Origin: Azospirillaceae bacterium
GTDB taxonomy: Bacteria > Pseudomonadota > Alphaproteobacteria > Azospirillales > Azospirillaceae
DNA: 64,000 nucleotides
Reading direction: 5' to 3'
Assembly (NCBI GenBank): GCA_031291675.1
Contig: JARLIO010000099.1
Span: forward strand, 1-64,000
Made by a program: the position numbers and the translations under genes
The notes under the pieces: model-generated
What the model saw: only the letters and a program-made list of their open reading frames with translations
Told to the model about the DNA's origin: nothing
Databases searched by the model: none
Shown: positions 8,690-49,437 of the stretch, in pieces
Position numbering within the stretch: the first letter of the stretch is position 1
How the letters are laid out: the number at the start of each line of letters is the position of its first letter

Positions 8690-8708
8690 GGGTGATCTCG
8701 ATTCCCGG

Positions 8709-10043: not shown

Positions 10044-10407
10044 CTGCGACTCCCGAGCGGCTATCACAATTCAGCCTCTGTGCCGCGGAGCCATTTGAAC
10101 GGCGCGCACACGGCTATTGTCTTGAAAGGGATTTTAGCGGATGCGCCTCGAAGTTTACTGGCTATCGGGATCGTAGCCTTCGATCGCGGACGGGCACCAC
10201 ACTCGGAATCTACTCAGATCTGCGAGGAGGCGGTCCGCCACAGCAGGAAAAGCGCCGAACAATACTGGAACCGCGACGATCCGGTGTCGAAGCCGGTGGA
10301 TGAGTATTTTCCGGGGCTGTTGCTCGCGAGCCGTCCGCCAGAGTCTAGCGCCGCTCACCCGGATGCCGGTGTCGTGAGCGTGAAACCCGCATTACGAGGA
10401 AAGCGCC
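10044..10407. other. divergent intergenic region between MFS/nifJ operon and lactate dehydrogenase
   Basis: 364 bases that must hold the promoters of both divergent units. I looked for an FNR-type site (TTGAT-N4-ATCAA) and did not find one. I see no convincing -35/-10 pair and no believable protein on either strand. Confidence 0.5.
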
Positions 10408-12274: not shown

Positions 12275-12434
12275 AGTGCCTCTTTTTTAAATTAATGCGT
12301 GTACCGCGCCCGCGTGACCTGTTGGCGGCGCCGGCGTCATTGGTTCCGTGGTCGCCGCAGGTAATTTTGTCGGATTTGCAGCACCGTCAAAATATTAACC
12401 CCGTGGAACTTCCGCGTTCCACCGATTCGAGGCG

Positions 12435-13025: not shown

Positions 13026-13130
13026 AAAGTGGCTGTAGGCGTTGGTTGAGCCGATTTCAGCGGTGACGACGGTGATGCCGGGACAGTCGAAAGATTTGGC
13101 CGCGACCAGGACCGTCGCGGCCGGCTGGAT

Positions 13131-14180
13131 CTAAGCCAGGCAGTTCTTCAAGGCAATCAGTCCCAGACACGGTTGGCGCGTGTCGACGCAGCACAGCGTC
13201 GTATCGGGCAGCGCGAGCCGCGCTGTCCGGGGCCGCAATGCCGGCCGCAACGCCAGATCGATCGCAAATAGGTCCAGCAGCATGACGGGATCATCGGCCG
13301 CCGAGGGCTCGACAAAACGCTGAAACAGTGCGACGGCAGCGCTGCTATCGTCGGTCCTGCTGTCCTTGGGGCCGCTGTCCTTGGGGCCGCCGCCCGTGGG
13401 GGCGTCGGCCCGCAAAATCGACGCGCCGGCGCGTCCAATCCGGCCCAGCAAGCTCGACAAATAGCGGGAGTCCGCGCTGTGCGCTGGAGGACACATGGCA
13501 GATGCGGCATCCCAGCGCGCTTCGGCAGCGTGCCGTAAGACTGTGGCCAGGGGATGGACCGGTGGGTCCATCGCCTCGGCGGGCGGTGACAAGGCGACAA
13601 AGCGGTGTTTCAGCTTGATCAATTCCCAGTGCGCGACGTTGGTCCCGGGATCGATCATCAGCGCGCGATCGAATGCCGCCGCCGCCGCCGCCGCGAACTG
13701 GGGCACGCCCAAAGTTTCGCCCAAAACGGCGTAGCCCGCCGACCGATCCGGTGCGAGCGCGATCGACCGCTGGTGTGCGGCCAACGCCAGGTCCTCGCGT
13801 CCCACCAAGGTTGCGATCACGCCAAGCGCGGACCACCCGGCCGCGTGGGTCGGCTTGACGGCCAACGCGCGCCGGTACCAGCGCAACGCCCCGACCCAAT
13901 CCCCACGCCGAGCCGACATGTCGCCGACATTGCCAAGCGCGGTTACCTCGGCGGGATCGAGCCGCAACAAGGCGCGCCGTAGCGTCGCTGCTTCAGCCCA
14001 TTGGCTCTGCTTTTGCGCCAAGATCGCCAGCGTCTGAAGCGATGCCGTCAGCAGGCGCAGCGCCGCCTGCGGATTTGGACAAAGGCTCATGCTTCGGCGC
14101 GCCATGGTTTCGACGAGGACATCGTCGTTTGCCATAAGCTGCTCGACCGCGACAGTGGTCAGGTCATCCCCATCGTTCAT
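13131..14180 (-). CDS. tetratricopeptide-repeat protein, N-terminal part of a split TPR-DUF5672 gene
   Basis: 349 residues from an ATG at 14180 preceded by AAGGGG; a TTG at 14252 is less likely. Residues about 60-165 form TPR-like helical pairs (for example ALGNVGDMSARRGDWVGALR, WYRRALAVKPTHAAGWSALG and AHQRSIALAPDRSAGYAVLG). A short repeated linker GPKDSGPKDS follows the repeats. The C-terminus LALPDTTLCCVDTRQPCLG is the beginning of a DUF5672 domain whose remainder lies beyond the TAG stop in the same frame (12435-13130). The intact protein would be about 580 residues: TPRs for protein contacts and a glycosyltransferase-like domain. I infer a nonsense mutation or a sequence error rather than two natural genes. 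Confidence 0.7.
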   Translation of the reverse strand: MNDGDDLTTVAVEQLMANDDVLVETMARRSMSLCPNPQAALRLLTASLQTLAILAQKQSQWAEAATLRRALLRLDPAEVTALGNVGDMSARRGDWVGALRWYRRALAVKPTHAAGWSALGVIATLVGREDLALAAHQRSIALAPDRSAGYAVLGETLGVPQFAAAAAAAFDRALMIDPGTNVAHWELIKLKHRFVALSPPAEAMDPPVHPLATVLRHAAEARWDAASAMCPPAHSADSRYLSSLLGRIGRAGASILRADAPTGGGPKDSGPKDSRTDDSSAAVALFQRFVEPSAADDPVMLLDLFAIDLALRPALRPRTARLALPDTTLCCVDTRQPCLGLIALKNCLA

Positions 14181-33795: not shown

Positions 33796-34848
33796 TTACG
33801 GCACGGATGTCTCCGCCGGGGTGTCGGTGATATCGTCGCGGTGGCACGCAATCCATTGGTCGGCGGTCCCGCGCCGCAGCACCGGGCGATCGATCCGGCA
33901 CCGGTCAACGGCATAGCGACACCGAGGATGAAAGCCACATCCTGCGGGCGGGTCCATCGGCGACGGGACCTCACCGGACACCCCGACAAACGATTGCTTG
34001 CCCGCACCGATGCGTGGCATCCCGGCAACCAGGAGACGGGAGTAGGGATGTCGCGCCCGTCCGAACAACGTCTCGGTCGGCGCCAACTCGACAATCCGGC
34101 CCAGATACATCACCGCCGTGCGGTCACAGATATGGTAGACGACGCCGAGGTCATGACTGATCAACAGGGTCGTCAGCCCCAGATCCCGGCGCAGCGTCAT
34201 CAACAGATTGATGATCTGCGCCTGCACCGATACGTCCAGCGCGGCCGCCGCCTCATCGCACACCAGGATCTCCGGCTTGACGGCCAAGGCGCGGGCGATG
34301 GCAATGCGCTGACGCTGGCCGCCGGAAAACTGGTGGGGATAGCGATGCGCCAGCGCCGGATCCAATCCAACCTGGACCATGATCCCGTCGACATAGCCGG
34401 CCAGCGCTTCGCGGCCGACAAGGCCATGGACGGCGGGCGCCTCGCCGATGATCCGCTGGATCGTCATCCGCGGATTCAACGAGGCCATCGGGTCCTGAAA
34501 CACCATCTGCACCTTGAGCCGCTGTCGGCGCGCCGTCGCACCCGATGCGCGATAAAGAACCTGACCGCGATAGCGGACCTCCCCCGCCGTCGGCTTCAGC
34601 AATCCCGCCACCATGCGCGCCAGCGTGCTCTTGCCGCACCCTGATTCGCCGACCAGACCCAGGGTTTCGCCCCGTTCCAGGTCGAGACAAACATCGCTGA
34701 CCGCATGGACCCCGTCACCGGCGCGCCGGTGATCGAGGGTCGCGACCAGACGTTCGGTCAAGGTCGGACGGGCCGCATATCGCTTCGACAAATGGGCGAT
34801 TTCGAGCAGCGGCACGGCGGGGGCCCAATCCGATGACGGTTCGATCAC
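33796..34848 (-). CDS. dipeptide/oligopeptide ABC transporter ATP-binding protein (OppF/DppF type)
   Basis: 350 residues from a GTG at 34848 whose GTGA overlaps the stop of the preceding ATPase gene by four bases. Walker [10 protein letters not shown], the Q-loop in [15 protein letters not shown], the signature [16 protein letters not shown] and Walker [14 protein letters not shown] are all present. The C-terminus has the oligopeptide-type extension with cysteines ([15 protein letters not shown]), which in some relatives binds an iron-sulphur cluster. A non-canonical point is alanine for the usual proline-threonine/valine-serine after the Walker B glutamate (DEAAAALD). It powers import with the OppD-type ATPase and is the last gene of the operon. 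Confidence 0.92.
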
Positions 34849-35885
34849 GGTTGCTCCGGGGATGGCAGCGATGGCTCGGGATTGACACAGCGCCAGCAAT
34901 GACCAGGGGCCTGACCGGTGTCGACCGGGTGGCGATCGCCGGTGAGTTCGGGCATGACCGCGCAAGCGGCAATCGCACGCGGGCACCGCGGCTGGAAGGA
35001 ACAGCCGGGCGGCAAGGCCAATGGCGACGGCATCATCCCGGGAATCTGGGCCAGGGGTTCCGAACGGCGACCATAGCCGGGCCGGGCCTCGATCAGACCC
35101 TTGGTGTAGGGATGACGGGGCCGGCCGATCACCGTTGCCGTCGGACCGGTTTCAACGACGCGGCCGGCGTAAAAGACACAAAGCCGATCGGCCAATCCCG
35201 AGACGACCGCAAGGTCATGGGTGATCCAGATCAGGGCCATACCCGTTTCACGAACCAATTCCTGGATTCTCCTCAGGATCTGCGCCTGGATCGTGACATC
35301 AAGGGCGGTTGTCGGCTCGTCCGCGATCAACAGGTCCGGCCGGTGCAGCAGGGCGATCGCAATGGCGACACGCTGGCGCATGCCTCCCGAAAGCTGGTGC
35401 GGGTAGACCTTGAGCTGGTGCTCCGGTGCCGGGATGCCGGCACGGCCCAGCGCTTCGCAGGCCAAGTGTCGCGCGGCTGCCCGATCGATCGTGCGATGGG
35501 CGCGCAGCGCCTCGACGATCTGGCTTTCGATCGTCAGCACCGGGTTGAGCGTCGACATCGGGTCCTGAAAGATCATGGCGATGCGATTGCCGCGCAGCGT
35601 GCGCTGCCGCCGCCGGCCGATCCGGATCAGATCCTCGCCGTGAAACCGGATCTCGCCGCCGGAGACGCGACCGGGCGGATCGATCAGACCGAGGATCGAG
35701 AGCGCCGTGACCGACTTGCCCGACCCCGATTCACCGACCAGCCCGAGGATTTCACCGCGGTGCACGCTGAAGCCAACGCCGGCAACGACCGTCACGAAGC
35801 CGGATCGGCCGTCGAAACCGATCGAAAGCTTGTCGATCGCCAACACGGGCGACGGCACCGTGGCTGGATCGGCCGCAAACGCCAT
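34845..35885 (-). CDS. dipeptide/oligopeptide ABC transporter ATP-binding protein (OppD/DppD type)
   Basis: 346 residues from the ATG at 35885, four bases after the OppC-type stop. Walker A GESGSGKSV, Q-loop MIFQDPMSTLNPVL, signature QLSGGMRQRVAIAIAL and Walker B LLIADEPTTALD are complete. The C-terminal oligopeptide-type extension PPGCSFQPRCPRAIAAC carries the usual cysteines. The protein pairs with the downstream OppF-type ATPase to form the asymmetric nucleotide-binding dimer on the cytoplasmic face. Gene order (binding protein, two permeases, two ATPases) and overlaps show one operon. Confidence 0.93.
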   Translation of the reverse strand: MAFAADPATVPSPVLAIDKLSIGFDGRSGFVTVVAGVGFSVHRGEILGLVGESGSGKSVTALSILGLIDPPGRVSGGEIRFHGEDLIRIGRRRQRTLRGNRIAMIFQDPMSTLNPVLTIESQIVEALRAHRTIDRAAARHLACEALGRAGIPAPEHQLKVYPHQLSGGMRQRVAIAIALLHRPDLLIADEPTTALDVTIQAQILRRIQELVRETGMALIWITHDLAVVSGLADRLCVFYAGRVVETGPTATVIGRPRHPYTKGLIEARPGYGRRSEPLAQIPGMMPSPLALPPGCSFQPRCPRAIAACAVMPELTGDRHPVDTGQAPGHCWRCVNPEPSLPSPEQP

Positions 35886-35889
35886 CGCC

Positions 35890-36765
35890 TCAACGCTCCC
35901 CCGTCGAATGGAACCAATCCTGAAGCCCATCGCCCACAATGTTGATGGCACCAATGACCAAGACCAGGGCGATGCCGGGAAACAGGCTGATCCAATATTC
36001 CCCGCTCAGCAGATAGTCGTAACCGCCCGCGATCAGCATCCCCAGCGAGGGTTCGGTGACCGGCACGCCAACGCCCAGGAACGACAATGTCGCCTCCAAT
36101 GTGATCGCGTGGGCTGCCTGGACTGGAACGATCACCAGCAGTGGCGGCAGGCAGTTGGGCAACAGATGACCCAAGGCGATCCGCAACGGTGCCAGCCCGA
36201 GGCCGGCCGCGGCCTGGACATAGTCCTTGCCGCGCTCGACCAGCGCCGAGGCCCGGACCGTTCGGGCGAAATAAGCCCATTGCACGGCGATCAGCGCCAA
36301 AATCACCTTGTCGACGCCCTGGCCCAGCAAACCGAGGAGTATCAAGGCAATCAGGATGGCCGGAAACGATAGCTGAAGGTCGACGAGGCGCATGATCGCG
36401 GCATCCACCCAGCTCCGGGCAAAGGCAGCCAGCAATCCGGTCACCATCCCGAACAGCAGCGCGACCGTGGTACTGACAGATGCCACCAGCAGACTGGTGC
36501 GCAGCCCGTAGAAAATCGCCGACAGCATGTCGCGACCCTGCGGATCGGTGCCGAGCCAATAGCGGGCGGTGCCGGTCGCCATGGCGGATCCGGGCGGCAG
36601 ATGGGCATCAATGACGTCGAGTTGGGCAAGATCGTAAGGATTCTGCTGCGACAGCCACGGGGCCAACACGGCGACCAGCACGGCGGCGACCAGGACCAGA
36701 CCGGCGATCACCGTCGCCGGGCGCGCCGCCGCGATGAGCCGCCAAGAGCGGGGGTGAGCCGGCAT
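35890..36765 (-). CDS. ABC transporter permease (OppC/DppC type)
   Basis: 291 residues from the ATG at 36765, 20 bases after the OppB-type stop. An N-terminal membrane helix (VIAGLVLVAAVLVAVLA) is followed by the periplasmic segment GTDPQGRDMLSAIFYGLRTS, typical of OppC. The EAA-type cytoplasmic loop reads AAAGLGLAPLRIALGHLLPN, and about six membrane helices are present in total. Together with the OppB-type permease it forms the membrane channel. The C-terminus GDGLQDWFHSTGER resembles the usual DGLRDALDP-type ending. Confidence 0.92.
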   Translation of the reverse strand: MPAHPRSWRLIAAARPATVIAGLVLVAAVLVAVLAPWLSQQNPYDLAQLDVIDAHLPPGSAMATGTARYWLGTDPQGRDMLSAIFYGLRTSLLVASVSTTVALLFGMVTGLLAAFARSWVDAAIMRLVDLQLSFPAILIALILLGLLGQGVDKVILALIAVQWAYFARTVRASALVERGKDYVQAAAGLGLAPLRIALGHLLPNCLPPLLVIVPVQAAHAITLEATLSFLGVGVPVTEPSLGMLIAGGYDYLLSGEYWISLFPGIALVLVIGAINIVGDGLQDWFHSTGER

Positions 36766-36785
36766 CACGCCCGGGCCGACCGCCG

Positions 36786-37754
36786 TCAACGGTTGGCTCC
36801 AATGCGGGGATCGAGTGCGGCATACAACAGATCGACCAGCAGGTTGATCACCATGAACACCAGCACGATGACCAGCAGGTAGGCGACGACGACCGGGCGA
36901 TCCAGATGGACGATGCTGTCGATCAGCAATTTGCCCATCCCGGGCCAGGCAAAAATTGACTCGGTCACGACCGAGAAGGCGATCACCGATCCCAGCTCCA
37001 TGCCCAGCACCGTCACGATCGGGATCATGATGTTCTTCAGGATATGGACCCCGATGATCCGCCCCGACGACAAACCCTTGGCCCGTGCAAAACGGATGTA
37101 ATCCTGGCGCGCGACGTTGCGCGTGCCGGCACTGGCGAGGCGAATGATCAGCGATGTTTTGAACAGGGCCAGGTTCGCCGCCGGCAACAACAGATGGGCG
37201 AGGCCGTCGAGGCTGAGGATGCCGAGTGAAATCCCGGCAACCGGCACGGTGATGCCGCGCCCCCCCGCCGGCAACCAACCAAAATGAACCGAGAACGTCA
37301 TGATCAGCACCAGCCCGACCCAGAAGGTCGGCAGGCAGAAACCCAGGATCGAGAAGGCGGCAATCGCCCGCCCGACGATGCCGCCCGGGCTCAGTCCAGC
37401 CCAAAGGCCAAGCGGCAAGCCGATCAGCAGCGCCGTGATCATCGCCGTCACCGCCAGTTCCAGCGTCGCCGGAAGTCGTTCCAGCACCAGACCGAGGGCC
37501 GGCGCACCATGGACGAACGAGGTGCCCAGATCGCCATGGGCCAGACGCCCCACGAAGCTCAGGAACTGGATCGCCAACGGCTGGTCGAGGCCGAGGCGGG
37601 CCATCGCCGCCTGGCGCTCCATCTGGTCGGCTTCGGGACTGACCAGGACGTCAACCGGATTGCCGATCGCATAGATGGCGAGAAACGCCAGAATCGCCAT
37701 CACCAGCAGGACCGCGACGCTTTGGCCGACCCGGCGCAGCAAGACGGTCACCAT
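36786..37754 (-). CDS. ABC transporter permease (OppB/DppB type)
   Basis: 322 residues from the ATG at 37754, which overlaps the stop of the binding-protein gene by one base (TGATG). It starts VLLRRVGQSVAVLLVMAILA with the family's first helix and has the characteristic LGLDQPLAIQFLSFVGRLA segment followed by GDLGTSF. The cytoplasmic coupling loop is DYIRFARAKGLSSGRIIGVH. About six membrane helices are present, and the C-terminus YAALDPRIG is conserved. It forms the permease pair with the OppC-type protein for uptake of a peptide, nickel complex or opine-like solute. Confidence 0.93.
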   Translation of the reverse strand: MVTVLLRRVGQSVAVLLVMAILAFLAIYAIGNPVDVLVSPEADQMERQAAMARLGLDQPLAIQFLSFVGRLAHGDLGTSFVHGAPALGLVLERLPATLELAVTAMITALLIGLPLGLWAGLSPGGIVGRAIAAFSILGFCLPTFWVGLVLIMTFSVHFGWLPAGGRGITVPVAGISLGILSLDGLAHLLLPAANLALFKTSLIIRLASAGTRNVARQDYIRFARAKGLSSGRIIGVHILKNIMIPIVTVLGMELGSVIAFSVVTESIFAWPGMGKLLIDSIVHLDRPVVVAYLLVIVLVFMVINLLVDLLYAALDPRIGANR

Positions 37755-39373
37755 CACGGCCCCCGCGCGACGTCGTTTGCGAGGACATCGGTCGCCAGCG
37801 TGAATTGGTCGGCGCGCGCCTTGTAGCTCAGACCGGACCGCAGTGCCCAGGCCGTCAGCTCGTAATGCAGCGGGATCACGGCGACGTCATCCATTGCCAC
37901 CTTCATCGCCTGGGCCAACAGGGCTTCGCGGCCGGGATCGTCGATCGTGGCCAGGGCCCGGATCAGCAGATCGTCCACCGCCCGATTGGAATAACCGCCA
38001 TAGTTAAAGGTCCCGAAACCATGGGTGACATCAGGGGTGGCGATGATCGCCTTGAGCGGCGAAGACATTTCACCCGTCGCCGGCCCCCACCCCAGCAGCG
38101 ACGCACTGAATTCGTTGCGATGGGCACGCTGGAAGAAAATGCTGTTGGTGCTGGCATCGACCCGGGTCTTGACGCCGATCCGTGTCCACATCTGGGCAAC
38201 GGCCTGGGCCACCTTCTGATCATGGATGTAGCGGTCGTTGGGCGTCCCCAGCACCAGTTCGAAACCATCGGGATAACCGGCCTGTTCGAGCAGCTGGCGG
38301 GAGCGCACCGGATCATAATTGACGTGGATCGCCGGGTTGAAACCGAAAAATCCCGGTGGCATCAGTTCGGACGCCGCGACGGCGCTGCTGTTCATGATGC
38401 TGCGAACAATGGCGTCGCGGTTGATCGCAATCGCCAGGGCCTCGCGCACCCGCGGATCTTTCAGGGGATTGCGGCCGGCCGCGCCGGCGATGGAACGGGG
38501 TTGGTCGCTTGTTTGATCCAATTCCAGGAAAATCGTCCGGTTCGACTGCACCTGAACCACCGAAATCCCCGGCGTCGCCCGCAGCCGTTCCAGATCCTGG
38601 ACCGGCGGCATCTCGATCATGTCGACATCGCCGGCCAGAAGTGCCGCGACCCGCGGGGCATCGGCGGTCAAAGGCCGGAAGATCACCCGGTCCCAAGCCG
38701 GCCGCGGGCCCCAGTAATCGGGGTTGCGCACCAGGACGATGCGGTCGCCCTTGACGTATTCGGCCCGCTTGAACGGGCCGGTGCCCATGGCCAGCGTGCC
38801 GTCATCGAACAGCGCGCTGTTGGGATAGGACGACACCCCATTGCATCCCGCGCGATCGAAGCGCACGGCCATGCCGCCAGCGGCACGGGCCGAGACGATG
38901 CCGAAGGTCGCCAGCTCGGTCGGCAGCAACGGATAGGGTGCCGCGGTGCGAATGATCAGCGTGTAGGGATCGGGCGTCTCGATCGCGTCGATCCCGCGGG
39001 TATAGAGCGCGAACGATGTCGGGCTGTTGGGGACATTCGGAATGCGGCAGACGGTATAGATGAAATCCTGGGCGGTGAACGCGGTGCCGTCGTGAAACCG
39101 CACCCCTTGGCGCAGCTTGAATTCCCAGGTCAACGCGTCGATGGGCCGCCATTGCGTGGCCAAGAGCGGGAACAGCTTCTGATTTTCATCCTGGCCGATC
39201 AGGGATTCGAAAACGTGACGCCGCAAAGAATTGTCCGGCGTCGTATTGCGAAAATGCGGATCAAACGTGGCCGGCTCGGCGGCGGTGCCGATCCGCAGAT
39301 CGGCCGATCGGGCCGGACCCGTCAGCAACAGACCGGTCATTGCGCATGCCATGGCACACAAACGCAGCTTCAT
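37754..39373 (-). CDS. extracellular solute-binding protein, family 5 (peptide/nickel type)
   Basis: 539 residues from the ATG at 39373 with GGAG eight bases upstream. The signal peptide MKLRLCAMACAMTGLLLTGP is followed by a cleavage site near ARSA; the cysteines are not in a lipobox. The family 5 pattern is seen in TAAEPATFDPHFRNTTPDNS, RQGVRFHDGTAFTAQDFIYT, TGPFKRAEYVKGDRIVLVRN and PDYWGPRPA. The protein captures the substrate in the periplasm for the four transport proteins encoded downstream. Binding proteins of this family carry di- and oligopeptides, nickel, haem, opines or sugars, and the sequence does not settle which. The operon starts here, 124 bases after the chemoreceptor gene on the same strand. 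Confidence 0.93.
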   Translation of the reverse strand: MKLRLCAMACAMTGLLLTGPARSADLRIGTAAEPATFDPHFRNTTPDNSLRRHVFESLIGQDENQKLFPLLATQWRPIDALTWEFKLRQGVRFHDGTAFTAQDFIYTVCRIPNVPNSPTSFALYTRGIDAIETPDPYTLIIRTAAPYPLLPTELATFGIVSARAAGGMAVRFDRAGCNGVSSYPNSALFDDGTLAMGTGPFKRAEYVKGDRIVLVRNPDYWGPRPAWDRVIFRPLTADAPRVAALLAGDVDMIEMPPVQDLERLRATPGISVVQVQSNRTIFLELDQTSDQPRSIAGAAGRNPLKDPRVREALAIAINRDAIVRSIMNSSAVAASELMPPGFFGFNPAIHVNYDPVRSRQLLEQAGYPDGFELVLGTPNDRYIHDQKVAQAVAQMWTRIGVKTRVDASTNSIFFQRAHRNEFSASLLGWGPATGEMSSPLKAIIATPDVTHGFGTFNYGGYSNRAVDDLLIRALATIDDPGREALLAQAMKVAMDDVAVIPLHYELTAWALRSGLSYKARADQFTLATDVLANDVARGP

Positions 39374-39497
39374 CAAAGATCTCCGGATGGTTTCAGCAGG
39401 GACCGGGATGACGGGCGACGCAACCCGACCCCGCAGCCGAAGACCGGTGCCCTGGCGCCAGGCCAAGGCGACACGAAAGGGCCCCCGGCATTGCGGC

Positions 39498-41624
39498 TCA
39501 GACACCGGCGATGGCCGACAGGAATTCCTGAACCTCGCGATGGTGCTGATCGGTCTCCCGTGACAGCCCGTCGATGGTTTCCAGGACCCGCAGGGCCGAC
39601 ACTGTGGTTTCTTGCGCGTTTCCGGTCACCATCCGGATGTCGGCGGTGACCAGGCTGGTTGCGGTTGCCGCAGACTGAACATTCTGGCTGATCGATACCG
39701 TGGTCGCCGATTGCTGATCGACCGCCGCCGCGATCGTTTGGGCGATGCCGTTGATTTCGATGATCATCGTGGCGATGCCGTTGATCACCGTGGCGCATTC
39801 CCCGGTGCTCTGGCGGATGTCGTTGATCTGGCGTTCAATCATCTGGGTCGCGCCCGCCGAGCGGTTGGCCAGGGCCTTGACCTCCTGGGCGACGACGACG
39901 AATCCCCGGCCGGCTTCGCCGGCCCGTGCCGCCTCGATCGTGGCGTTCAGGGCCAGCAGGTTGGTTTGTTCGGCGATGGCACTGATCGTGCTCAGGATCG
40001 CATCGGCCTCTTTGGTCGCGCTCATCATGCGCGCCATCACCGTTCGGGTGCGTTCGGCATTATCGACCGCCCGGCGGGTATGGTCGGCGGCGCGAACCGC
40101 TTCCTCGGCGATCTGGCGGGTGGCCGCGGAGAGTTCTTCCAGCGCGGCGGCAACGGTGCCGACATTCGACGATGTCAGCATCGCACCGTCGGCCGCGGAG
40201 GCGATCTTCGAGCTGGTGCGTTCGGCGACGTCCCGCATCAGGCTGGCGTCCTCGTTGACCTCACGCCGGATGGCTTCCACCCGATCAAGGGTCTGGCCCA
40301 CGGCGCCGCCAAAACGCCGGATCAGGTCGGACATCAGCGTCAGCCGCTGTTTTTCGGCGTCCGCCTTTGCCTGCTCCTGGCTGCGCATCTGATCGCGTTC
40401 CACCGCGGCCGCCCGGAACACCTGCAGGGCGCGCGCCATCGTGCCGATCTCGTCCTCGCGACGGACACCGGGAATGTCGATCGCGAGGTCGCCCGCCGCC
40501 AGCCGTTCCATCCGGGCGGTAAGCCCGACCAGCCGTTTCAGGATATCACGCTGGACCAGCAGCCAGGAAAACAGCAAGCCCCCGATCAGCGCCACGCCAA
40601 CAATCGTCGCCGTCGCCGTCATGCCGGTGATGATCGTGCGGTCGACCTCCTTGCCCATCTGACCGGCACGCTGCTCGGTCGCCCGGACCACGTCCTCCAC
40701 CTCCTTCGCCTGCTCTTGCAATGCGGCGGACAGGGACTCCAAGGTCGCCGCTGTTTTCACCCGCCCCTCGAGTTCGGCTTGGCGCAAGCCGAACAGCCCG
40801 GACGGACCGCTGCCGCGATCCAGCATGGCGCCCGCCAGACGCTTGGGCATATCATCGGAAAGGATGCCGGCGAGGAAGTCACCGGCAAACTTCATCTTGT
40901 CCTTGGCGGCCGCGAATTCCTTGTTCAGCGCCGCAAGGGTCTCGATATTGCCCGCGACATCGGCCTTGCCCAGGGTGGCCGCCACCATGTTGGCCTGCCC
41001 GATCATATCGGCGAAGGCCTGAACCACCGGGACATCGGTACTGATCAGGTTGATGGCCAGGTTCGTCAGATCCGAGGCCTCCGTCGGCATCTCCAGCGTC
41101 AAATTCTGGATTGAAAGATTCTTGTCCTCGGCCAACGGCGCGATCGCCTTCAGCAGCGCGGCGTGGGCCTGCGTCAGTTCCGCCATGACGCCATGCCGCC
41201 GCACCGCCAACGCCAGTTGGTTCTTGACCTCGCCATCAAGCTGATCAACCAATCCATGCATGGCGTCGAACTGGCTCGACAAGCGCTGGCGACGATCGGC
41301 GTCCAGGCCCAACGTCGCCATCTGGTCGAGCATGCCGCGCAGCGTGCGCGTCCGATTGTCGAAGGCGTCGCGCAGTGTGGCGCGTTCGCCTTCGTCGGCC
41401 GCGGCCGCCAAGCTCCGGGCCTGATCCGCCAAACCGGCGCTCTGGTTCGCCAGTTTCAACGCGGCGTTCGACAAAGGCAGCTCTGCTGAAAGGACCTGAT
41501 CAAACCTGGTTGCCACCCGCAACTGAAAAAATCCGCTGGTGACACCAATTGCTAGTGCAGCAAGTAATAACCCGCCCACCGCACCAATCAATTTGGTCCG
41601 GATACTTCCAGCAATTCTCAACAT
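39498..41624 (-). CDS. methyl-accepting chemotaxis protein
   Basis: 708 residues from the ATG at 41624 (GGAG six bases upstream). Transmembrane helix 1 ([20 protein letters not shown]) and helix 2 near residue 330 enclose an unusually long periplasmic domain of nearly 300 residues. It is almost wholly helical (for example [38 protein letters not shown]) and resembles helical-bundle sensor domains such as that of TorS, which binds a periplasmic partner protein. HAMP ([20 protein letters not shown]) and the signalling tip [20 protein letters not shown] follow. It lies between an orphan TRAP-type binding protein (72 bases upstream, same strand) and the peptide-type ABC operon. I infer that it may sense a ligand-loaded binding protein. 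Confidence 0.92.
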
Positions 41625-41696
41625 CGTTGTCTCCGGTATCGTGGACGCCTCGGAAACGAGCCTATCTCGTCGGTCATGCAACAGTACCCGTCATCA

Positions 41697-42752
41697 CTAC
41701 TCGTTTTGTTTGATGACGGTTTGCGCTTTTTCGACCAAGGCCTTGCCGTCGATGCCCTGCTTGGTGACACCGGCAGCCCATTCGTCGTAGACGTCGGTCA
41801 GTTCCTTGTGCATGGCGTCGATGGCCGCGGCGTCAAAGTTGACAAAGACGTGGTGGCCGTCCTTGGCCAGGTCTTGCCGCGTCACGTCCTCCTGCTTGTC
41901 GCGGTCAATCGCGATCACCGTGCCCAGGGCGCAGCCGGCGCTGAGTTCCTTGACGAAGGCCTGCTGGACGTCCGGTGGCAGGCCGTTGAAGTATTTTTCC
42001 GACATGAACAGGCCGACCGCGGGTGCCGAGAAGCCGATATCGATGATCTGGGTCACCTGGTCCATCAACATCTTGCCGTCGATACCGCTGGTGATCTCGG
42101 AGGCGTACAGGCCGTAGGCCATGCCCTGGATCATGCCGGAGGCCAAGCCCTTGCCGGTGTCGCCGATCCCGAGATTGACTGGAATGGCCCCCAGTTTCTG
42201 CAGCGCCCGCGCCCCTGTCGGCCCCGGTGCCCGGATCTTGACGCCGCGCAGGTCACTGGGGGATTCGATCTTGCGCTTGTCGTCGAGGAGGATCGCATAG
42301 GTCGGCAGCGCCCAGGTCGTCAGCACCTTCAGCCCTTTGAAGTCACGATCGAACATCCCCGCGTCCTGGAGCGCACACAACGCCTTGGTTCCGGCCAGCG
42401 AGGTCCGACGGATCATGGGGAGTTCCACAACGCCGGTGCTGGCAAATCGTGATGGGTTGCTACTGAACACAACATAGGCCAGCTGCAGGTCATTCGATTC
42501 GACCTTGGAGACTACTTCTGTTACTTTGCCGTATTTGTTATCGTAGCCGACATCGAACGTTACAGCGCCTTTGGTGTCAGCCGTTATTGCAGCAAATTGT
42601 TTTTCGACAAGTTGCCACGTTGACGAGGAAGGTAACTGAAGCGTTCCAACCTTGATCACGGTTTCTGCCTGGGCTGGCGCCGTTAACATGGCACCGACTG
42701 ACAGTGCCAATGTGCTAACGACAAAATTCCGTAACAAAGCAGATTTATTCAT
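41697..42752 (-). CDS. TRAP transporter solute-binding protein (DctP family), orphan
   Basis: 351 residues from the ATG at 42752. A signal peptide (LRNFVVSTLALSVGAMLTAP, cleavage near AQA) precedes a DctP-type fold: TVIKVGTLQLPSSSTWQLVE, a central segment LDDKRKIESPSDLRGVKIRA with the conserved arginine that binds a carboxylate, and a C-terminal helical part. Such proteins bind C4-dicarboxylates, keto acids or aromatic acids in the periplasm and deliver them to DctQ/DctM membrane proteins. No dctQ or dctM lies beside it. The only close neighbour on the strand is a chemoreceptor with a helical-bundle sensor domain. This suggests a role in sensing rather than, or in addition to, transport. Confidence 0.88.
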   Translation of the reverse strand: MNKSALLRNFVVSTLALSVGAMLTAPAQAETVIKVGTLQLPSSSTWQLVEKQFAAITADTKGAVTFDVGYDNKYGKVTEVVSKVESNDLQLAYVVFSSNPSRFASTGVVELPMIRRTSLAGTKALCALQDAGMFDRDFKGLKVLTTWALPTYAILLDDKRKIESPSDLRGVKIRAPGPTGARALQKLGAIPVNLGIGDTGKGLASGMIQGMAYGLYASEITSGIDGKMLMDQVTQIIDIGFSAPAVGLFMSEKYFNGLPPDVQQAFVKELSAGCALGTVIAIDRDKQEDVTRQDLAKDGHHVFVNFDAAAIDAMHKELTDVYDEWAAGVTKQGIDGKALVEKAQTVIKQNE

Positions 42753-42820
42753 TCTCTTCAGATCCTCTGTTTCGGTATTTGTTGTCATCTGATCCGTTGG
42801 ATCTCAATGACGATGACGGT

Positions 42821-42863
42821 CCTGGTGGCGACGGGCCTGGTGGCGACGGGCCTGGTGGCGGCG
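42821..42863. repeat. 15-bp tandem repeat, just under three units
   Basis: CCTGGTGGCGACGGG occurs twice in full and once as a partial copy with one change. It lies 69 bases upstream of the binding-protein start and is not in a supported gene. Confidence 0.85.
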
Positions 42864-43188
42864 AATTTCGATGGGCAAATTTGAGACGGATGTCCTGAGT
42901 ATTGCGTCTGTTTCAACGTCTATTGCCTTGCCGGTGTCGTTCGCAATGTCGGGATCGAATGGATCCATGAGATACGCGCATCGCAGGAACGCAACAGGCC
43001 GCATCGACGAAGGAAATGTATTTTCGATAAATTGTTCCCCTAAGCTGACTCTCTTTCAGGCACATTCGCGCTCACCGAGCATGACATTTAAGAAAATACC
43101 AAAATATCTTATCAGTTTTATGATCATATTATGTCCGTCGCATACGCGTTTCAAATTATCCTGAAAAATGAAAGGTGAAATGACGGCC

Positions 43189-43368
43189 TTATCGGAAAGT
43201 GGCTTCAACCAATGGCCAAGGTCCCGATTCTAGCGTTTTGCTCATCGTCCTGGCCAAACGCGCCATTTCAGCCTGATCCGGGTGTCCCACGACCCGCGCA
43301 ATGCCGGGGGTCCGGCCCTTGGTTTCGCGCGGGCCGTCATGGGTTTGCCGCAGCTTGACCGGAAGCAA
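43189..43368 (-). CDS. possible small protein, low confidence
   Basis: 59 residues from a TTG at 43368. AGGAGG is present upstream but only three bases away, which is too close for good initiation. The translation (starting LLPVKLRQTHDGPRETKGR) is charged and free of low complexity, and its codon use looks like that of the neighbours, so this may be a small gene or the tail of a decayed one. I recognise no family. Confidence 0.3.
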   Translation of the reverse strand: MLPVKLRQTHDGPRETKGRTPGIARVVGHPDQAEMARLARTMSKTLESGPWPLVEATFR

Positions 43369-43645
43369 TCGCCTCCTGACGCAGTGACAATCTTATTGCG
43401 TTGCGATTGTCTCAGTCCAAGCGAATGACGCGGCAGGACCCCATTCGAGGCAAGTAAAATTTGGTCTTTTGTGAATTAATTTATACTATGCGGCGCCGTT
43501 ATCCACCGTGCCGGTCCAAAAAATACGTCGATGCTGCCATTGTCACGGTAAATTAAGCGATATTTCATATTTCTAGCATTGACGATCGCCGCAGGCGATC
43601 ATTATAGAATCTCTTTTTATCGATAAAATTGAAACGGTTTAACAA

Positions 43646-45145
43646 GTGGCAAAAAACGAGAGTAACACGGACCAATGTCTCATCGGCATCACGTCGCGTG
43701 CTGACCCGGCGATGCCGCCCTTGATCCGTGACTTTCTGTGCGGCACGGCGAGCGCGCTGGGGATCCCCGGCGACGACATCGCCCGTCTGCGCGGCCTCAC
43801 CGAAGAGGTGTGCCGTTACGTGATCGAGCAATCCTTCGATCCCGGTGACAATGGCCAATTCCAAATGAGCCTGTGGCGCCGGACGGACTCGATCGAACTG
43901 GTCGTGGAGGATCGTGGTCTGCCCCTCCATTTCGATCAGCAGGCGCCGCTTGACCGGAGCCAGGCCGCACTCCTCCCGCTTCGGGCCTATGCGGACGAGG
44001 TTCGTTTCCACAACCTCGGCAAGCAGGGCAAGCGTCTTGAATTCAGTTGTCGCCTCGATGCCGAGACGATCGAGCAGATTGTGGCCCGTGAGTCGGCGTC
44101 GCCAGTACCGGATTCCGTTGGCGAGGACAATGTCACGCTTCGGATGATGACCGCGGCCGATGTCGTGCGGGTCTCGCAATGCATCTACCGATCCTACGGG
44201 CTCTCCTACTACCGGGAATCGCTCTATTATCCCGCGAAGATCGTGGCGATGCTGCAGCGGGGACAGCTTGAATCGTGCATCGCCATCACTGATTCGGGCC
44301 GGATCGCCGGGCATCTCGCTATTTTTTATGACCGGAGCGACGCGAAGGTCTGCGAGACGGGTGTCGCTGTCGTCGATCCGCAATTCCGCGGCCACCGCCT
44401 GTTCGAAAAGATGAAGGTGATGGCGGGCACGCGGGCGATCGAACGCGGAATGTATGGCATCTACAGCGACGCGGTCACCGCTCATCCCTACTCGCAACGA
44501 AGCAATCTGGCCCTTGGCGCGCGCGAGACCGGCGTCCTGCTCGCCTATCTGCCCGATCGTGTGCTCTTCAAGAAAATCAAGGAGGTGGAATCGCCCGCCC
44601 GCGGGACAAGCTTCCAGTTCTTTCTGCGGGTCTGCCCGATCCCGGAGGCCGAGGTTTTTCTTCCCGTGCATCACGCCGCATTGATCGAAGAAATCTACGC
44701 CCGCCTCGACGTGCCCCGGCGGATCATCAAGGCCGACAGCAATGCCTTTGAATCGGTGCGCGGCCTGCGCACGCAATATGATCTCGAACACAAACCGGAG
44801 ACCAGCCTCATCTACCTGCGCATCAATTCTTACGGGAGCGACGTGTTGCTGGTCATTCACAATATATTGCGTGATGTCCTGCAAAGGAACGATGTCGCCT
44901 GCGTCCATCTTCTTTTACCATTGCGCGAGCCGTTGACCGAGTTGCTGTGCAAGGGCATGGAAAGTTTCGGCTTTTTCTTTTCCAGCATCCTGATTGAATA
45001 TGACCACGGCGATTTTTTGCGCCTACAGTATCTCAATAACCTGATCGTTAATCCGGCGGATATCAAGGTTGCGTCCGATTTTGGGCAGAAATTGCTCGAT
45101 TACGTTCTCGACCAGCGGGAAGTCATCACACGAAATGCCATCTGA
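43646..45145 (+). CDS. RsbW-like ATP-binding domain fused to GNAT acetyltransferase-like domain
   Basis: 499 residues from a GTG at 43646; no clear ribosome site, so an internal start such as the ATG at 43712 is possible. Residues 1-140 resemble the GHKL ATPase of anti-sigma kinases (RsbW/SpoIIAB): LRGLTEEVCRYVIEQSFDP matches the N-box helix region and IELVVEDRGLPLHFD the ATP-binding G1 strand. Residues about 155-310 resemble GNAT: VTLRMMTAADVVRVSQCIYR, then VAVVDPQFRGHRLFEKMKVM with the acyl-CoA loop (FRGHRLFEK). A third part of about 180 residues has no match I know. The gene lies 27 bases before a SulP transporter whose STAS domain is a typical substrate for such kinases. Confidence 0.82.
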   Translation: MAKNESNTDQCLIGITSRADPAMPPLIRDFLCGTASALGIPGDDIARLRGLTEEVCRYVIEQSFDPGDNGQFQMSLWRRTDSIELVVEDRGLPLHFDQQAPLDRSQAALLPLRAYADEVRFHNLGKQGKRLEFSCRLDAETIEQIVARESASPVPDSVGEDNVTLRMMTAADVVRVSQCIYRSYGLSYYRESLYYPAKIVAMLQRGQLESCIAITDSGRIAGHLAIFYDRSDAKVCETGVAVVDPQFRGHRLFEKMKVMAGTRAIERGMYGIYSDAVTAHPYSQRSNLALGARETGVLLAYLPDRVLFKKIKEVESPARGTSFQFFLRVCPIPEAEVFLPVHHAALIEEIYARLDVPRRIIKADSNAFESVRGLRTQYDLEHKPETSLIYLRINSYGSDVLLVIHNILRDVLQRNDVACVHLLLPLREPLTELLCKGMESFGFFFSSILIEYDHGDFLRLQYLNNLIVNPADIKVASDFGQKLLDYVLDQREVITRNAI

Positions 45146-45172
45146 TCAACGAGTCCTGTTCCGGAGATCACC

Positions 45173-47431
45173 ATGTTGATGAGCCAGGCGCAACCGTCCA
45201 TGGCCTTTGATGGCAATGTGCGGGGCGATATCATGGGCGGCATGACGGCCATGCTGGTGTCGCTGCCCATGATCCTCAGTTGTGGCGCCGTGGTGTATCA
45301 ACCGTTCGGCCCGCATTTCGTCGCCGCGGGTGTCGCCGCCGCGTTCATCACGGCAATCGCCGGAGCCCTGGTTCCCGCCATTCTCGGGGGGCGTCTGCAT
45401 GTCAACGCGCCGCGCCCGACGCAGGCGGCCCTGCTCGCCGCGATGATGGTCGATCTGGCCGGCCAACCGAATTTTCGCGCGCTGCTGCCGTCCGATGCGC
45501 TGGGCGCCGACGCGGTGCTGATGGTGATGGCCGCCGCAGCCCTTGCGATTGCTGGCGTCACCCAGATCGTGCTCGGCACCCTTCGGCTCGGCGATCTCGT
45601 CAAATACGTGCCCCAGACCATCGTCGCGGGTTTCGTCGCCGGCTTCGTGATCCAAATCGTGGTGGTCCAGATCCCGTTTCTGCTGGGATTGGATGGCTGG
45701 TCGTCTCTGCGTCACGCGCTGCTCGGTGCCGGGGCGACGATCAACGTCTATTCGCTCGCGCTCGGGCTTCTGGCCGCCGCTGTCACTTTGCTGACCCGCC
45801 GCGTGACACGCCTGGTCCCCGGCGCCTTGGCGGGGTTGCTGATCGGAACCGTGGTCGACGGGACGGTTCAGCATTGGTTGCCGGGAGTCGACCGGGGCGC
45901 TATCATCGGAACCCTGCCGCCGGGCCTGTCGCTGGGCCTGCCGCTGACCGGCCTCAACACCGTGTTCCACGCCGGCCTGCCGGGGTCCGCGATCTACGCT
46001 CTGGTCGCGACCGGACTGACGCTGGCATTCATCACATCGATCCAGTCTCTTCTGAGCGCCACGGCCGCGGATTCCCTCTTCGGTGCGTCGGGGAATAGCA
46101 ATCAAGAGTTGACGAATCAAGGCGCAAGCAATCTGGTATCGGCCCTGATCGGTGGGACTGCGAGCGGTGGCTCGCCGCTTCTGACCCGGGCCGCCTTTCA
46201 GCAGGGCGGACAAACCCGACGGGTCAACCTGGTGCTGGGTCTGGGCCTGATCGTCCTGGCCTGGGGGTTGCGCGAGCCGGTCGGGGCCATTCCCTTGTCT
46301 GTCCTGGCGGCGGTCGTGATCGTCGTGACCGCCCAGGGATTGGATGACTGGACCAAACATCTGTTGCGGACCCTGTGGCGCGGGCCCCAGCGTCGCGACA
46401 TCCGCCGCCTTGGCACGGATCTGGCCGTCCTGGCCCTGGTGAGCCTTCTGGTTGCCTTCGTCAGCGTTCCCGCGGCGATCGGGATCGGCATGGCGATCAC
46501 GGTCGCGGTGTTCCTGAAACGATCCAGCACCTCGCCGGTTCGCCGGATTTACCGGGGTGACGTGCTGCAATCCAACACCGTGCGCAGCAATGTTGACGCC
46601 GCCGTGCTGGAACAGCATGGCCAGGAGACTGCGATCGTCGAACTTCAGGGGCCGATCTTCTTCGGTTCGGCGGATCTGTTGAGTCGCAGCATCGAGGAGG
46701 CCGGTGCCGACGCGCGCTGCGTTTTGCTGGATTTTCGGCGTGTGACCGACTTCGACAGTACCAGTGTGCTGATCTTGAAGCGGGTTGACGGCCTGTTGAG
46801 CGGGCGCGGCTGTCGCCTGTTGCTGGCCGGCCTGGCAGAGGGCTCCGATTTTCGCTGTTTCCTGCACGAAGTCGGGTTCGATCGCCCCGAACAGGAAGGA
46901 CGGATCTTCGCCGAGCTCGATTTTGCCCTGGCCCATGCGGAGGATCGATTGCTGGCGGCACGGCGCACCGATCCGGTCGAGCATGACGAGATCCCGCTGA
47001 CCAGCCACCCGGCGCTCACCGGGCTGAGCGTGGCGCGGCTGTCGATGATCGAAATCCTGGCGCAACGCATGGAATATCCCACCGGCACCGCGATTTATCG
47101 GGAGGGTGAACCGGCGGCGTCAATCTTCCTGCTGATGAAGGGCGCTGCGACCCGCCAACGCCGTCTCGCCGGCAGCCCCCACCCGTTGCGCCAGACCGGC
47201 TATCGCGCCGGAGCGTTGTTTGGTGAAGCCGCCTTGTTTCGTGGGGGGCCGTGGGCGGCGGATGTCGTCACCGATACGCCCGTCGTCTGTTATCGCCTCG
47301 CCGTCGAAGACCTGTTGATGGTCGACAGCATCGATCCCTGGATTGCCCTGACGATCGTTCGCAATATCGCCAGCGGACTGATGGACCGGGTGCAATTCCT
47401 GCGTCAGGTGCAGATGGCCCGGGCGCAGTAG
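45173..47431 (+). CDS. SulP family anion transporter with STAS and cyclic-nucleotide-binding domains
   Basis: 752 residues with GGAG six bases before the start. Membrane part, residues 1-440: about a dozen helices with the SulP features GDIMGGMTAMLVSLPMILSC at the start, HVNAPRPTQAALLAA and SNQELTNQGASNLVSALIGG. STAS domain near 475-590, including VELQGPIFFGSADLLSRSIE and FRRVTDFDSTSVLILKRV; the serine in FDSTS sits where SpoIIAA-type proteins are phosphorylated. A cNMP-binding-type domain near 620-740 follows (RMEYPTGTAIYREGEPAASI, GYRAGALFGEAALFRGG). The substrate may be sulphate, bicarbonate or an organic anion. Two regulatory domains on one transporter, and a kinase-like gene directly upstream, point to control of transport by phosphorylation and a nucleotide. 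Confidence 0.92.
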   Translation: MLMSQAQPSMAFDGNVRGDIMGGMTAMLVSLPMILSCGAVVYQPFGPHFVAAGVAAAFITAIAGALVPAILGGRLHVNAPRPTQAALLAAMMVDLAGQPNFRALLPSDALGADAVLMVMAAAALAIAGVTQIVLGTLRLGDLVKYVPQTIVAGFVAGFVIQIVVVQIPFLLGLDGWSSLRHALLGAGATINVYSLALGLLAAAVTLLTRRVTRLVPGALAGLLIGTVVDGTVQHWLPGVDRGAIIGTLPPGLSLGLPLTGLNTVFHAGLPGSAIYALVATGLTLAFITSIQSLLSATAADSLFGASGNSNQELTNQGASNLVSALIGGTASGGSPLLTRAAFQQGGQTRRVNLVLGLGLIVLAWGLREPVGAIPLSVLAAVVIVVTAQGLDDWTKHLLRTLWRGPQRRDIRRLGTDLAVLALVSLLVAFVSVPAAIGIGMAITVAVFLKRSSTSPVRRIYRGDVLQSNTVRSNVDAAVLEQHGQETAIVELQGPIFFGSADLLSRSIEEAGADARCVLLDFRRVTDFDSTSVLILKRVDGLLSGRGCRLLLAGLAEGSDFRCFLHEVGFDRPEQEGRIFAELDFALAHAEDRLLAARRTDPVEHDEIPLTSHPALTGLSVARLSMIEILAQRMEYPTGTAIYREGEPAASIFLLMKGAATRQRRLAGSPHPLRQTGYRAGALFGEAALFRGGPWAADVVTDTPVVCYRLAVEDLLMVDSIDPWIALTIVRNIASGLMDRVQFLRQVQMARAQ

Positions 47432-47643: not shown

Positions 47644-47988
47644 ATGGTGGCGACGGTGTCAAACCAGACAATCGGCAGCGACGGCAACGAAGCCCTGGAT
47701 ATCCTCCGGCGGTTGGAACCGTCGCTCGGGCGCGTATCAACGGACGTTTCGCGGCTATCGACGGATGTTTCGCGGCTATCGACGGACCTCGCGCGCGTAT
47801 CGACGGATCTCGTGCGCGTTTCGACGGATGTCGGGAAGATTGATGACCGGCTGCGGAAGGTCGAGACGGATGTTGCGGAACTGAAGGGCCGCGTGTCTCA
47901 GCTTCCAACTCTCTGGCAGCTTGCCGGCTTGATCTTCGCGATCTTCGGCGCCTCATTTGTGCTGATCCGGTTCGCGTCAGGGCATTGA
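47644..47988 (+). CDS. small coiled-coil protein with C-terminal membrane helix
   Basis: 114 residues. The middle is five tandem seven-residue units of the form RVSTDVS, RLSTDVS, RLSTDLA, RVSTDLV, RVSTDVG, followed by DDRLRKVETDVAELKGRVSQ. Hydrophobic residues recur in heptad positions, so the protein should form a parallel coiled coil. The C-terminus has one membrane helix (LAGLIFAIFGASFVLI), so the coil is tail-anchored. The repeats are encoded by 21-bp DNA repeats whose number could change. Similar small proteins are common near transposon or phage-type DNA and their function is generally unknown. There is no good ribosome site, and the start may be within a few codons of that given. Confidence 0.7.
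   Translation: MVATVSNQTIGSDGNEALDILRRLEPSLGRVSTDVSRLSTDVSRLSTDLARVSTDLVRVSTDVGKIDDRLRKVETDVAELKGRVSQLPTLWQLAGLIFAIFGASFVLIRFASGH
47731..47835 (+). repeat. 21-bp tandem repeat, five units
   Basis: Five in-frame units of 21 bases, with the common core TCGACGGA, encode the heptads of the small coiled-coil protein. Units differ at a few positions only, so the array has probably expanded recently. Confidence 0.9.
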
Positions 47989-48032: not shown

Positions 48033-48566
48033 TCAGCCGAACTCCGCACTGCAGTTCGGCGTCTCCCAGACCGTCACCTTGACCAGCGCGGCGAGGCCGC
48101 GGCTGCGCGCGGCGACGCAGGGGCCGAGGCGCTCGAACCAGTGGCGGGCCAGGCATTCCGCCGTGGGTGGAAAGGCGATCACATAGAGTTTCTGCCCGAG
48201 CCTTGTCTCATCGGTTTCGGCAAATCCCTGGGCGCGCACGCTGTTGGCGAGTTGCCGTTGCCAGGCCGTCGCGTCAGCGGATTCGGGCGCAAACAATGCC
48301 AGGATCTCGGTGTCGTGAAGCGAAAGGATCAGGCCGTGGTCACAGGGTGCATCCACGACGGCCATCATCTCCTCCTTCAGGAAACCGAAATCCAGCACCA
48401 TGCCCGCTTCTTCGCCCGAGGCGTGGAGCTCGCCGCTGATCGATCGACAGGTTGCCTCGATCACATAGCGGTGTCCGTGCAGGTGTCGGCACTTCGAGGC
48501 GTGGTCCGGAATCCGGTGGCCGGCGTCGATGGCGATCTGCCGGGTGACTTCAAAGTATCTCGTCAA
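48033..48566 (-). CDS. queD: 6-carboxy-5,6,7,8-tetrahydropterin synthase
   Basis: 177 residues, somewhat longer than the 120-residue E. coli enzyme. The zinc-binding histidines are in AGHRIPD and HLHGHRYVIEA, and the catalytic cysteine precedes them in SKCRHLHGH. The acidic motif MVLDFGFLKEEMMAVVD and the C-terminal VTVWETPNCSAEFG (glutamate that anchors the pterin) are present. It converts 7,8-dihydroneopterin triphosphate to the carboxytetrahydropterin used by QueE in queuosine synthesis. An insertion of about 40 residues (ALFAPESADATAWQRQLANS onward) accounts for the extra length and is common in alphaproteobacterial versions. queE lies 85 bases upstream on the same strand. Confidence 0.92.
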   Translation of the reverse strand: MTRYFEVTRQIAIDAGHRIPDHASKCRHLHGHRYVIEATCRSISGELHASGEEAGMVLDFGFLKEEMMAVVDAPCDHGLILSLHDTEILALFAPESADATAWQRQLANSVRAQGFAETDETRLGQKLYVIAFPPTAECLARHWFERLGPCVAARSRGLAALVKVTVWETPNCSAEFG

Positions 48567-48651
48567 GGATGTGGTCCTGCGTTGCGCGTCGTGAAGGCTT
48601 GATGTTCAAGGGGGCAATCTCTCCGATGCTTCTCAAACAAGAAAGCGGCGT

Positions 48652-49284
48652 TCACGGTATTCCGATCAGCTTGTGGGTTTGCAGGCTGAGGCGCCAGCTT
48701 GGATGGTCCAGGCAGTAGCGGACCGCCGCCGCCGTGTTGCGGATGCGCTCCGGTCCATCCAGGGGCTGAAGCCAGCGATGCTGGAAATCGAGAGGGCCCA
48801 AGCCGTCGGGCAGGAGGGTCGGCTGAGGATAGATGAGCTTGATCTCATGGCCCCGTCGCAGCCGCCACGGCGCCCCGGCTTTCGGGCTGACGCAGATCCA
48901 GTCGACCCCCTCCGGCGGTTCCAGCGTGCCATTGGTCTCGATCGCGACTTCGAAACCCTCCGTGTGGGCGGCCTCCAGCAGGGCGGTGTCCAGTTGCAGC
49001 AGCGGTTCGCCACCGGTGAAAACGACATAGCGCAGGGGCCGGGAGGGGCCCCAGGTGCGGGCAATCGCCGCGGCCAGCGCGCCGGCGTCGCTGAACCTGC
49101 CGCCACCTTCGCCGTCGGTGCCGACAAAGTCGGTGTCGCAGAACTGGCAGACGGCCGAGAGGCGATCCGGCTCGCGGCCACTCCACAGGTTGCAGCCGGC
49201 GAAGCGGCAAAACACGGCGGCCCGGCCGGCTTGGGCGCCTTCGCCCTGCAGGGTCTTGAAGAGTTCTTTGACGCTGTAGCTCAT
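48652..49284 (-). CDS. queE: 7-carboxy-7-deazaguanine synthase (radical SAM)
   Basis: 210 residues from the ATG at 49284. It starts YSVKELFKTLQGEGAQAGR, the QueE substrate-binding pattern. The [4Fe-4S] cysteines are in GCNLWSGREP and AVCQFCDTDF: the spacing is C-x14-C-x2-C rather than the radical SAM standard C-x3-C-x2-C, as known for the QueE subgroup of many proteobacteria. SAM contacts follow in YVVFTGGEPLLQLDT and IETNGT. The enzyme makes 7-carboxy-7-deazaguanine from the QueD product, the first deazapurine on the route to preQ0 and queuosine in tRNA. No queC or queF is in the window. Confidence 0.93.
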   Translation of the reverse strand: MSYSVKELFKTLQGEGAQAGRAAVFCRFAGCNLWSGREPDRLSAVCQFCDTDFVGTDGEGGGRFSDAGALAAAIARTWGPSRPLRYVVFTGGEPLLQLDTALLEAAHTEGFEVAIETNGTLEPPEGVDWICVSPKAGAPWRLRRGHEIKLIYPQPTLLPDGLGPLDFQHRWLQPLDGPERIRNTAAAVRYCLDHPSWRLSLQTHKLIGIP

Positions 49285-49437
49285 GACACCGCCGCTCCGG
49301 TCTTGGCGAGGCGCGGTCCAGCCGGTGCGGTTCGACACGCACGGCTGGCTGAAAGGGTCAGAGGGATCGGTGAGGGCAAAAAGGTGTGGTCCTGTTTCAC
49401 AATGTCGTTCCAAGAGGGCGCGTGCCGCCCGTGGGGG

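Follow-up and report, generated by a model that had tools for sequence, protein, structure and literature searches.

A pseudo-RsbW/GNAT protein encoded with a SulP-STAS transporter, a DctP-type binding protein and a chemoreceptor in Azospirillaceae

STAS domains occur in both anion transporters and anti-sigma switch proteins such as RsbV/SpoIIAA, the partners of RsbW/SpoIIAB, and in TorT-TorS a receptor is activated by a periplasmic binding protein. Here we describe a four-gene cassette found in a 64,000-nucleotide stretch of DNA from an Azospirillaceae bacterium (assembly GCA_031291675.1, contig JARLIO010000099.1, positions 1 to 64,000 of the forward strand; hereafter, the window). The cassette encodes a 499-residue protein in which an RsbW-fold domain is joined to a GNAT domain (the GNAT protein), a SulP/SLC26-type transporter bearing a STAS domain and a cyclic nucleotide monophosphate (cNMP)-type domain, a DctP-type (TRAP family 7) periplasmic solute-binding protein and a methyl-accepting chemoreceptor (MCP). 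As read from their sequences, these four genes are shown to be inherited together.

Each part of the cassette resembles a described system and departs from it. With RsbW/SpoIIAB and their STAS partners it has in common the N-terminal fold and a STAS domain encoded by the adjoining gene, but here the RsbW-fold part has neither N-box Asn nor ATP lid and is fused to a GNAT domain, and the STAS domain belongs to a transporter. The transporter shares with DauA and other SLC26/SulP proteins the SulP membrane domain and the STAS domain, but it has an extra cNMP-type domain and a dedicated RsbW-fold neighbour, and it scores far under the equivalog cut-offs (104 of 614 bits for DauA, 140 of 880 bits for BicA). 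As in TorT-TorS, a periplasmic binding-protein gene stands beside a receptor gene, and the sensor of that receptor gives a weak match to the TorS domain (5 of 10 loci at E up to 0.01; in the window, 23.4 bits against a cut-off of 27), but the cassette binding protein is of the DctP type and the receptor is a chemoreceptor. Passages in PMC9602780 describe binding proteins as widely activating chemoreceptors and other receptors. MlaB-MlaF offers a further likeness in that the STAS protein MlaB acts on its ATPase partner by contact and so controls a transporter, with no evidence of phosphorylation so far according to the relevant passages of PMC7367683; in the cassette a contact of this kind is one that we infer. 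In that system, as described there, the STAS protein is separate and the ATPase is the motor, whereas the cassette STAS domain sits on a secondary transporter. One review passage holds that the role of STAS domains in SLC26/SulP transporters is not fully explored (PMC8256260). Among the matches listed from open-licence PMC papers, none described the pairing of the GNAT protein with SulP or the cassette, and no paper on RsbW-acetyltransferase fusions was found in the same literature, where matches on DctP or TorS together with chemoreceptors supplied general background.

In the window, the GNAT-protein gene (43646..45145, + strand; supported by its open reading frame, Pfam and an AlphaFold2 model) ends 27 bases before the 752-residue transporter gene (45173..47431, + strand; open reading frame and Pfam), just as a first-pass annotation of this DNA had placed them. 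The DctP gene (41697..42788, − strand) and the MCP gene (39498..41681, − strand) point away from this pair across a gap of 857 bases (42789..43645), presumed to be a control region. Relatives of the GNAT protein occur in 13 of the 82 genomes of the bacterial family, and the 10 strongest of them (at least 833 bits) lie in the same 10 genomes as the transporter (E up to 1e-90) and the strong DctP matches (E <1e-170). Relaxing the DctP search to E up to 1e-40 added weaker matches in two genomes (G033 and G057) and a second copy in two others (G047 and G049). These genome-wide searches covered the GNAT protein, SulP and DctP; the MCP was seen at the cassette loci. Of the 11 closest full-length loci, 10 have the GNAT-protein gene next to SulP; the pair is conserved, whereas its lack of conservation in relatives had been named beforehand as counting against the first-pass idea. 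That annotation overlooked the rest of the conserved unit: a DctP-type gene and a HAMP/MCP gene stand beside the pair in all 10 loci, and these four are the only called genes common to them.

The four genes occur in three arrangements. DctP-MCP is divergent from GNAT protein-SulP in the window and L018-L020, all four genes run in the same direction in L021, and SulP is convergent in L022-L026. Over the 45 pairings of the 10 loci, the four genes have closely correlated protein distances (r 0.985-0.995). The cassette proteins form one clade (support 0.999), and the gene trees agree except at weakly supported nodes: the SulP tree joins the window to L019 (support 0.57), the other three trees join L018 to L019, and the order within genus g3 varies at weak nodes. 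The next relative beyond this clade, L027, is 37% identical. Named hosts include Azospirillum griseum, A. rugosum, A. cavernae and A. canadense; the scan of named genomes, made with two peptide patterns from the RsbW part, returned 12 loci, and its cassette loci, L034-L041, sit on contigs that had already supplied 8 of the 10 loci analysed, adding no further cases. Outside the family, a class sample of 385 genomes gave GNAT-protein matches in three (G000, G012 and G159) and SulP matches in four (G000, G012, G124 and G245), and a phylum sample of 398 genomes gave a match in G000 only; mostly the best two or three candidates per genome were scored in these two samples, making absence there less than firm.

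The domain layout first proposed for the 499-residue protein, a GHKL/RsbW-like domain, a GNAT-like domain and a C-terminal part, was upheld by Pfam and fold matches. By sequence, residues 19-132 of the window protein match HATPase_c_2 at E 5.3e-5 (23.7 bits, under the 27.4 cut-off) and the GNAT match is weak (E 0.11); when 16 relatives were scanned singly at E up to 0.1, HATPase_c_2 and Acetyltransf_1 were each matched in 13, and at that threshold the window's own protein matches HATPase_c_2 and not GNAT. In the AlphaFold2 model (mean pLDDT confidence score 77, lowest at residues 92-113 and 139-159), the best fold for residues 8-135 is SpoIIAB/RsbW (Z 14.8, root-mean-square deviation 2.9, 116 residues aligned to 1tid_A); structures in complex with STAS proteins are among the highest-ranked matches, and a profile search also gives a sequence match to RsbW (6m36, E 1.1e-6). 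Residues 162-339 have the GNAT RimI as their best fold (Z 14.2, deviation 4.3, 156 residues aligned to 5isv_A). We place the RsbW-fold domain at residues ~9-137, the GNAT at ~161-305, a weakly GNAT-like third domain at ~316-470 and a terminal helix at 478-498. The third domain, modelled alone with pLDDT 88, has GNATs at the head of its Foldseek list, though weakly, with two matches reaching E 0.001 or better (the best being 7e-4), and its best Z values are 8.3 and 8.2 to the N-terminal parts of NUDT7 and NUDT6, with GNATs at 7.5 or less; it may, without certainty, be a degenerate half-GNAT.

A GNAT acetyl-CoA loop follows the motif R/Q-x-x-G-x-G/A. The loops of all 10 cassette proteins depart from it, reading RGRRLF in eight, RGHRLF in the window and RGRHLF in one, so that the fourth position is Arg or His and the sixth is Phe throughout. 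The Phe also occurs in relatives outside the cassette (L027, L030, L031, L042 and L043) and thus may be a family trait and not a defect. Two of these, L030 (7412-8461) and L031 (8270-9436), are truncated paralogs with an RGGGLF loop that consist of the GNAT and third domains only, indicating that these domains can stand without the RsbW part; both were left out of the residue counts for the missing part.

The RsbW-fold domain of the cassette proteins has lost key residues of the ATP site, a point that the first-pass annotation had overlooked. The N-box Asn is replaced in all 10, by Tyr in four (the window and L018-L020) and by His in six (L021-L026), and the glycine-rich ATP lid is replaced in all 10 as well, while the N-box Glu and, in the G1 motif (DxG), D89 and G91 are invariant. 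Among the nine other relatives with the domain, seven keep both the Asn and the lid (L028, L029, L032, L033, L042, L043 and L097). They include the HATPase_c_2-GNAT proteins of Syntrophaceae (L043) and Sumerlaeota (L042), which share the three-part architecture at 34-36% identity but differ from the cassette proteins in this site, and around each of which no match to the cassette SulP, DctP or MCP was found in the 17 kb fetched. The remaining two, L027 and L074, have lost both features. We found no match to the cassette SulP, DctP or MCP in the 19 kb fetched around L027, and these two relatives led us to drop the idea of a tie between the lost ATP site and the transporter. L074 (8433-9914), a relative from another family of the same class, lies directly after a gene that by eye resembles a CoA-transferase or acetyl-CoA hydrolase. 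Despite the altered site, the ratio of nonsynonymous to synonymous change (dN/dS, Nei-Gojobori) in the ATPase-like domain is ~0.09, 0.11 and 0.18 in three close pairs, within the range of the other cassette proteins, which indicates that the domain is under purifying selection and kept for something; two wider pairs were set aside because synonymous change was saturated or undefined.

The transporter carries a Sulfate_transp match (8.5e-35) followed by a STAS match (3.5e-9; residues 484-557), both over their cut-offs. Ser529 and Thr530 of the STAS domain are invariant in the 10 cassette transporters, and the Ser, in the motif FDSTS, occupies what corresponds to the phosphorylation position in SpoIIAA/RsbV numbering, in agreement with the first-pass annotation. 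A Ser stands at this acceptor position in 10 of 10 cassette transporters versus 3 of 13 non-cassette SulP proteins, and the two nearest proteins of SulP-STAS-cNMP type that were found elsewhere, L115 and L116 from the class sample, have Leu there. In the DNA fetched around these two (12.7 and 18.5 kb), nothing matched the other three cassette proteins. Because the 10 sequences are related and, according to passages of PMC7367683, Ser or Thr is broadly conserved at this position among STAS proteins, the retention of the Ser is suggestive only. The cNMP_binding domain (PF00027; residues 633-715) is matched at E 1.8e-14 (53.9 bits against a cut-off of 27.5), as the annotation had reported, but its proposed role as a cyclic-nucleotide input is doubtful in the window copy, in which Trp replaces the Arg of the phosphate-binding cassette. 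L020 shares this Trp and the other 8 of the 10 have Arg, making cyclic-nucleotide binding unlikely as a requirement common to all cassettes.

The binding protein matches the DctP domain (PF03480) at E 6.4e-17, and its nearest solved relatives are the TRAP binding proteins 7nr2, 5im2, 5iga and 5i5p, some of which presumably bind aromatic acids; our guess is that its ligand is an aromatic or other carboxylate. Family scans, run at the window, found the MCP and an Opp-type ABC set beside DctP and no TRAP permease. The MCP has HAMP and MCPsignal domains in 10 of 10 loci. At two further loci, L093 and L094, DctP paralogs adjoin related MCPs (29-31% identical across 740-751 positions), which suggests that DctP-MCP is a separate module that became part of the cassette; no SulP or GNAT-protein match was found in 16 kb at L094, and the L093 contig is 5.2 kb long. 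The L094 arrangement (7201-13764), in which the paralogous pair is followed by an 839-residue frame whose C-terminus by eye resembles a response-regulator receiver, suggests a recurring binding protein-chemoreceptor module in the bacterial family.

Around the cassette, neighbour genes were called by script with approximate start positions, and at L027 the calling missed the relative itself. Three near-identical direct repeat copies with 15-base spacing lie at 42815-42863, 27 bases upstream of the DctP start. A promoter scan of 42700-45200 gave three sites versus 1.9 expected by chance, and promoter and terminator scans overall were at about chance level; Rfam at gathering scores found one tRNA only in the whole window, and a plasmid search gave no match. 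Directly behind the MCP gene lie the Opp-type ABC peptide importer genes (33796-39505, − strand; SBP_bac_5, permease and two ATPases), which were rejected as cassette members for want of any called gene in common with the other nine loci; similar genes occur near L027, L030 and L031. Just downstream of the transporter, a 114-residue frame (47644-47988, + strand) that repeats STDV/STDL motifs and has a hydrophobic stretch at its C-terminus lacks a cluster mate in the other cassette loci. Two frames at 48033-49413 (− strand) resemble, by eye, QueD and QueE of queuosine synthesis.

We propose, at a probability of roughly 40%, that the four genes act as one unit for chemotaxis and uptake, with transport gated by a pseudo-RsbW/GNAT adaptor docked on the transporter STAS domain. 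Ligand-loaded DctP would bind the chemoreceptor and drive chemotaxis towards the solute, probably a carboxylate, and SulP would bring in the same solute or a counter-anion. Presumably no longer able to bind Mg-ATP as related kinases do, the RsbW-fold domain would phosphorylate nothing but would still dock on the STAS domain at the Ser loop; the GNAT part may serve as signal input, through bound acyl-CoA or another ligand, or as a modifying activity brought to the transporter. In favour of the proposal are the joint inheritance of the four genes, the RsbW fold with STAS complexes among its structural matches, the upkeep of that domain despite the loss of its kinase residues, and the retention of the STAS Ser in cassette transporters. 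Passages in PMC5703999 describe SLC26 proteins as meeting partners mainly via STAS and DauA as a signal transducer with DctA. A narrower version, in which a chemoreceptor-linked pseudo-RsbW adaptor would control SulP by nucleotide-independent STAS docking with the GNAT domain as a ligand sensor, is tentative and on the doubtful side.

Several points weigh against the adaptor proposal. The contact between the RsbW fold and the STAS domain is itself putative, and DauA, according to the same passages, contacts DctA through its membrane domain and not its STAS domain, which counts against assuming a STAS contact here (PMC5703999). Chemoreceptors normally signal to CheA, and the route from the MCP to the GNAT protein is assumed. 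The cassette is absent from 72 of the 82 family genomes, SulP is convergent in 5 of the 10 loci so that co-transcription is not conserved, and the loss of the ATP site in L027 and L074 with no SulP match beside them argues that the loss is no adaptation to the transporter.

Other explanations differ in where they put the working part. The GNAT domain might acylate the imported solute, the transporter or the chemoreceptor, with the RsbW fold as a dimerisation or scaffold module; this fits the GNAT being the most conserved domain (mean pairwise identity 0.63, versus 0.55 for the third domain and 0.52 for the RsbW part), the invariance of residues such as His223, Glu237, Arg248, His280 and Gln284 in 16 of 16 relatives, and the truncated paralogs that dispense with the RsbW part, but the acetyl-CoA loop is atypical in all 10 proteins and the substrate is an assumption, and we consider it a possible though somewhat unlikely account. 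The GNAT protein could instead tune the chemoreceptor and not the transporter, making the cassette a find-and-eat unit for one solute. In 6 of 10 loci the MCP gene does immediately precede the GNAT-protein gene on the same strand; the SulP gene, however, is its neighbour in 10 of 10 and DctP-MCP is divergent in four, leaving this reading improbable.

Classical partner switching, the proposal of the first-pass annotation, would have the RsbW-like domain phosphorylate Ser529 and so control transport. The fold itself, the invariant Ser529 and Thr530 and the persisting N-box Glu and G1 Asp and Gly accord with it, but on alignment the N-box Asn and the lid are gone from every cassette protein, the very absence named beforehand as speaking against the idea, and 7 of 9 other relatives keep both. 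We therefore abandoned phosphorylation by this domain as the leading model and regard it as highly improbable. Phosphorylation in trans is possible, as genome-wide there are 22 HATPase_c_2 matches, four of them short RsbW-like frames (139-262 residues) over the Pfam cut-off that by eye all keep the Asn and the glycine-rich lid, and five SpoIIE-type phosphatase matches. Finally, the genes might be linked only by shared expression or joint transfer, without molecular contact. Their scattered distribution (10 of 82 genomes; 6 of 45 in genus g3) is compatible with transfer or loss as a block, but adjacency was kept through three arrangements and the gene distances match across a deep divergence (37-41% identity), suggesting continued selection for all four genes and making mere linkage quite unlikely.

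A transporter STAS domain co-inherited with an RsbW-fold protein makes the cassette a small bacterial test case of whether such a pair still binds, and does so without phosphorylation. If the adaptor proposal is true, the fold of a partner switch would have been put to a new use, free of kinase chemistry, in coupling solute sensing to anion uptake.

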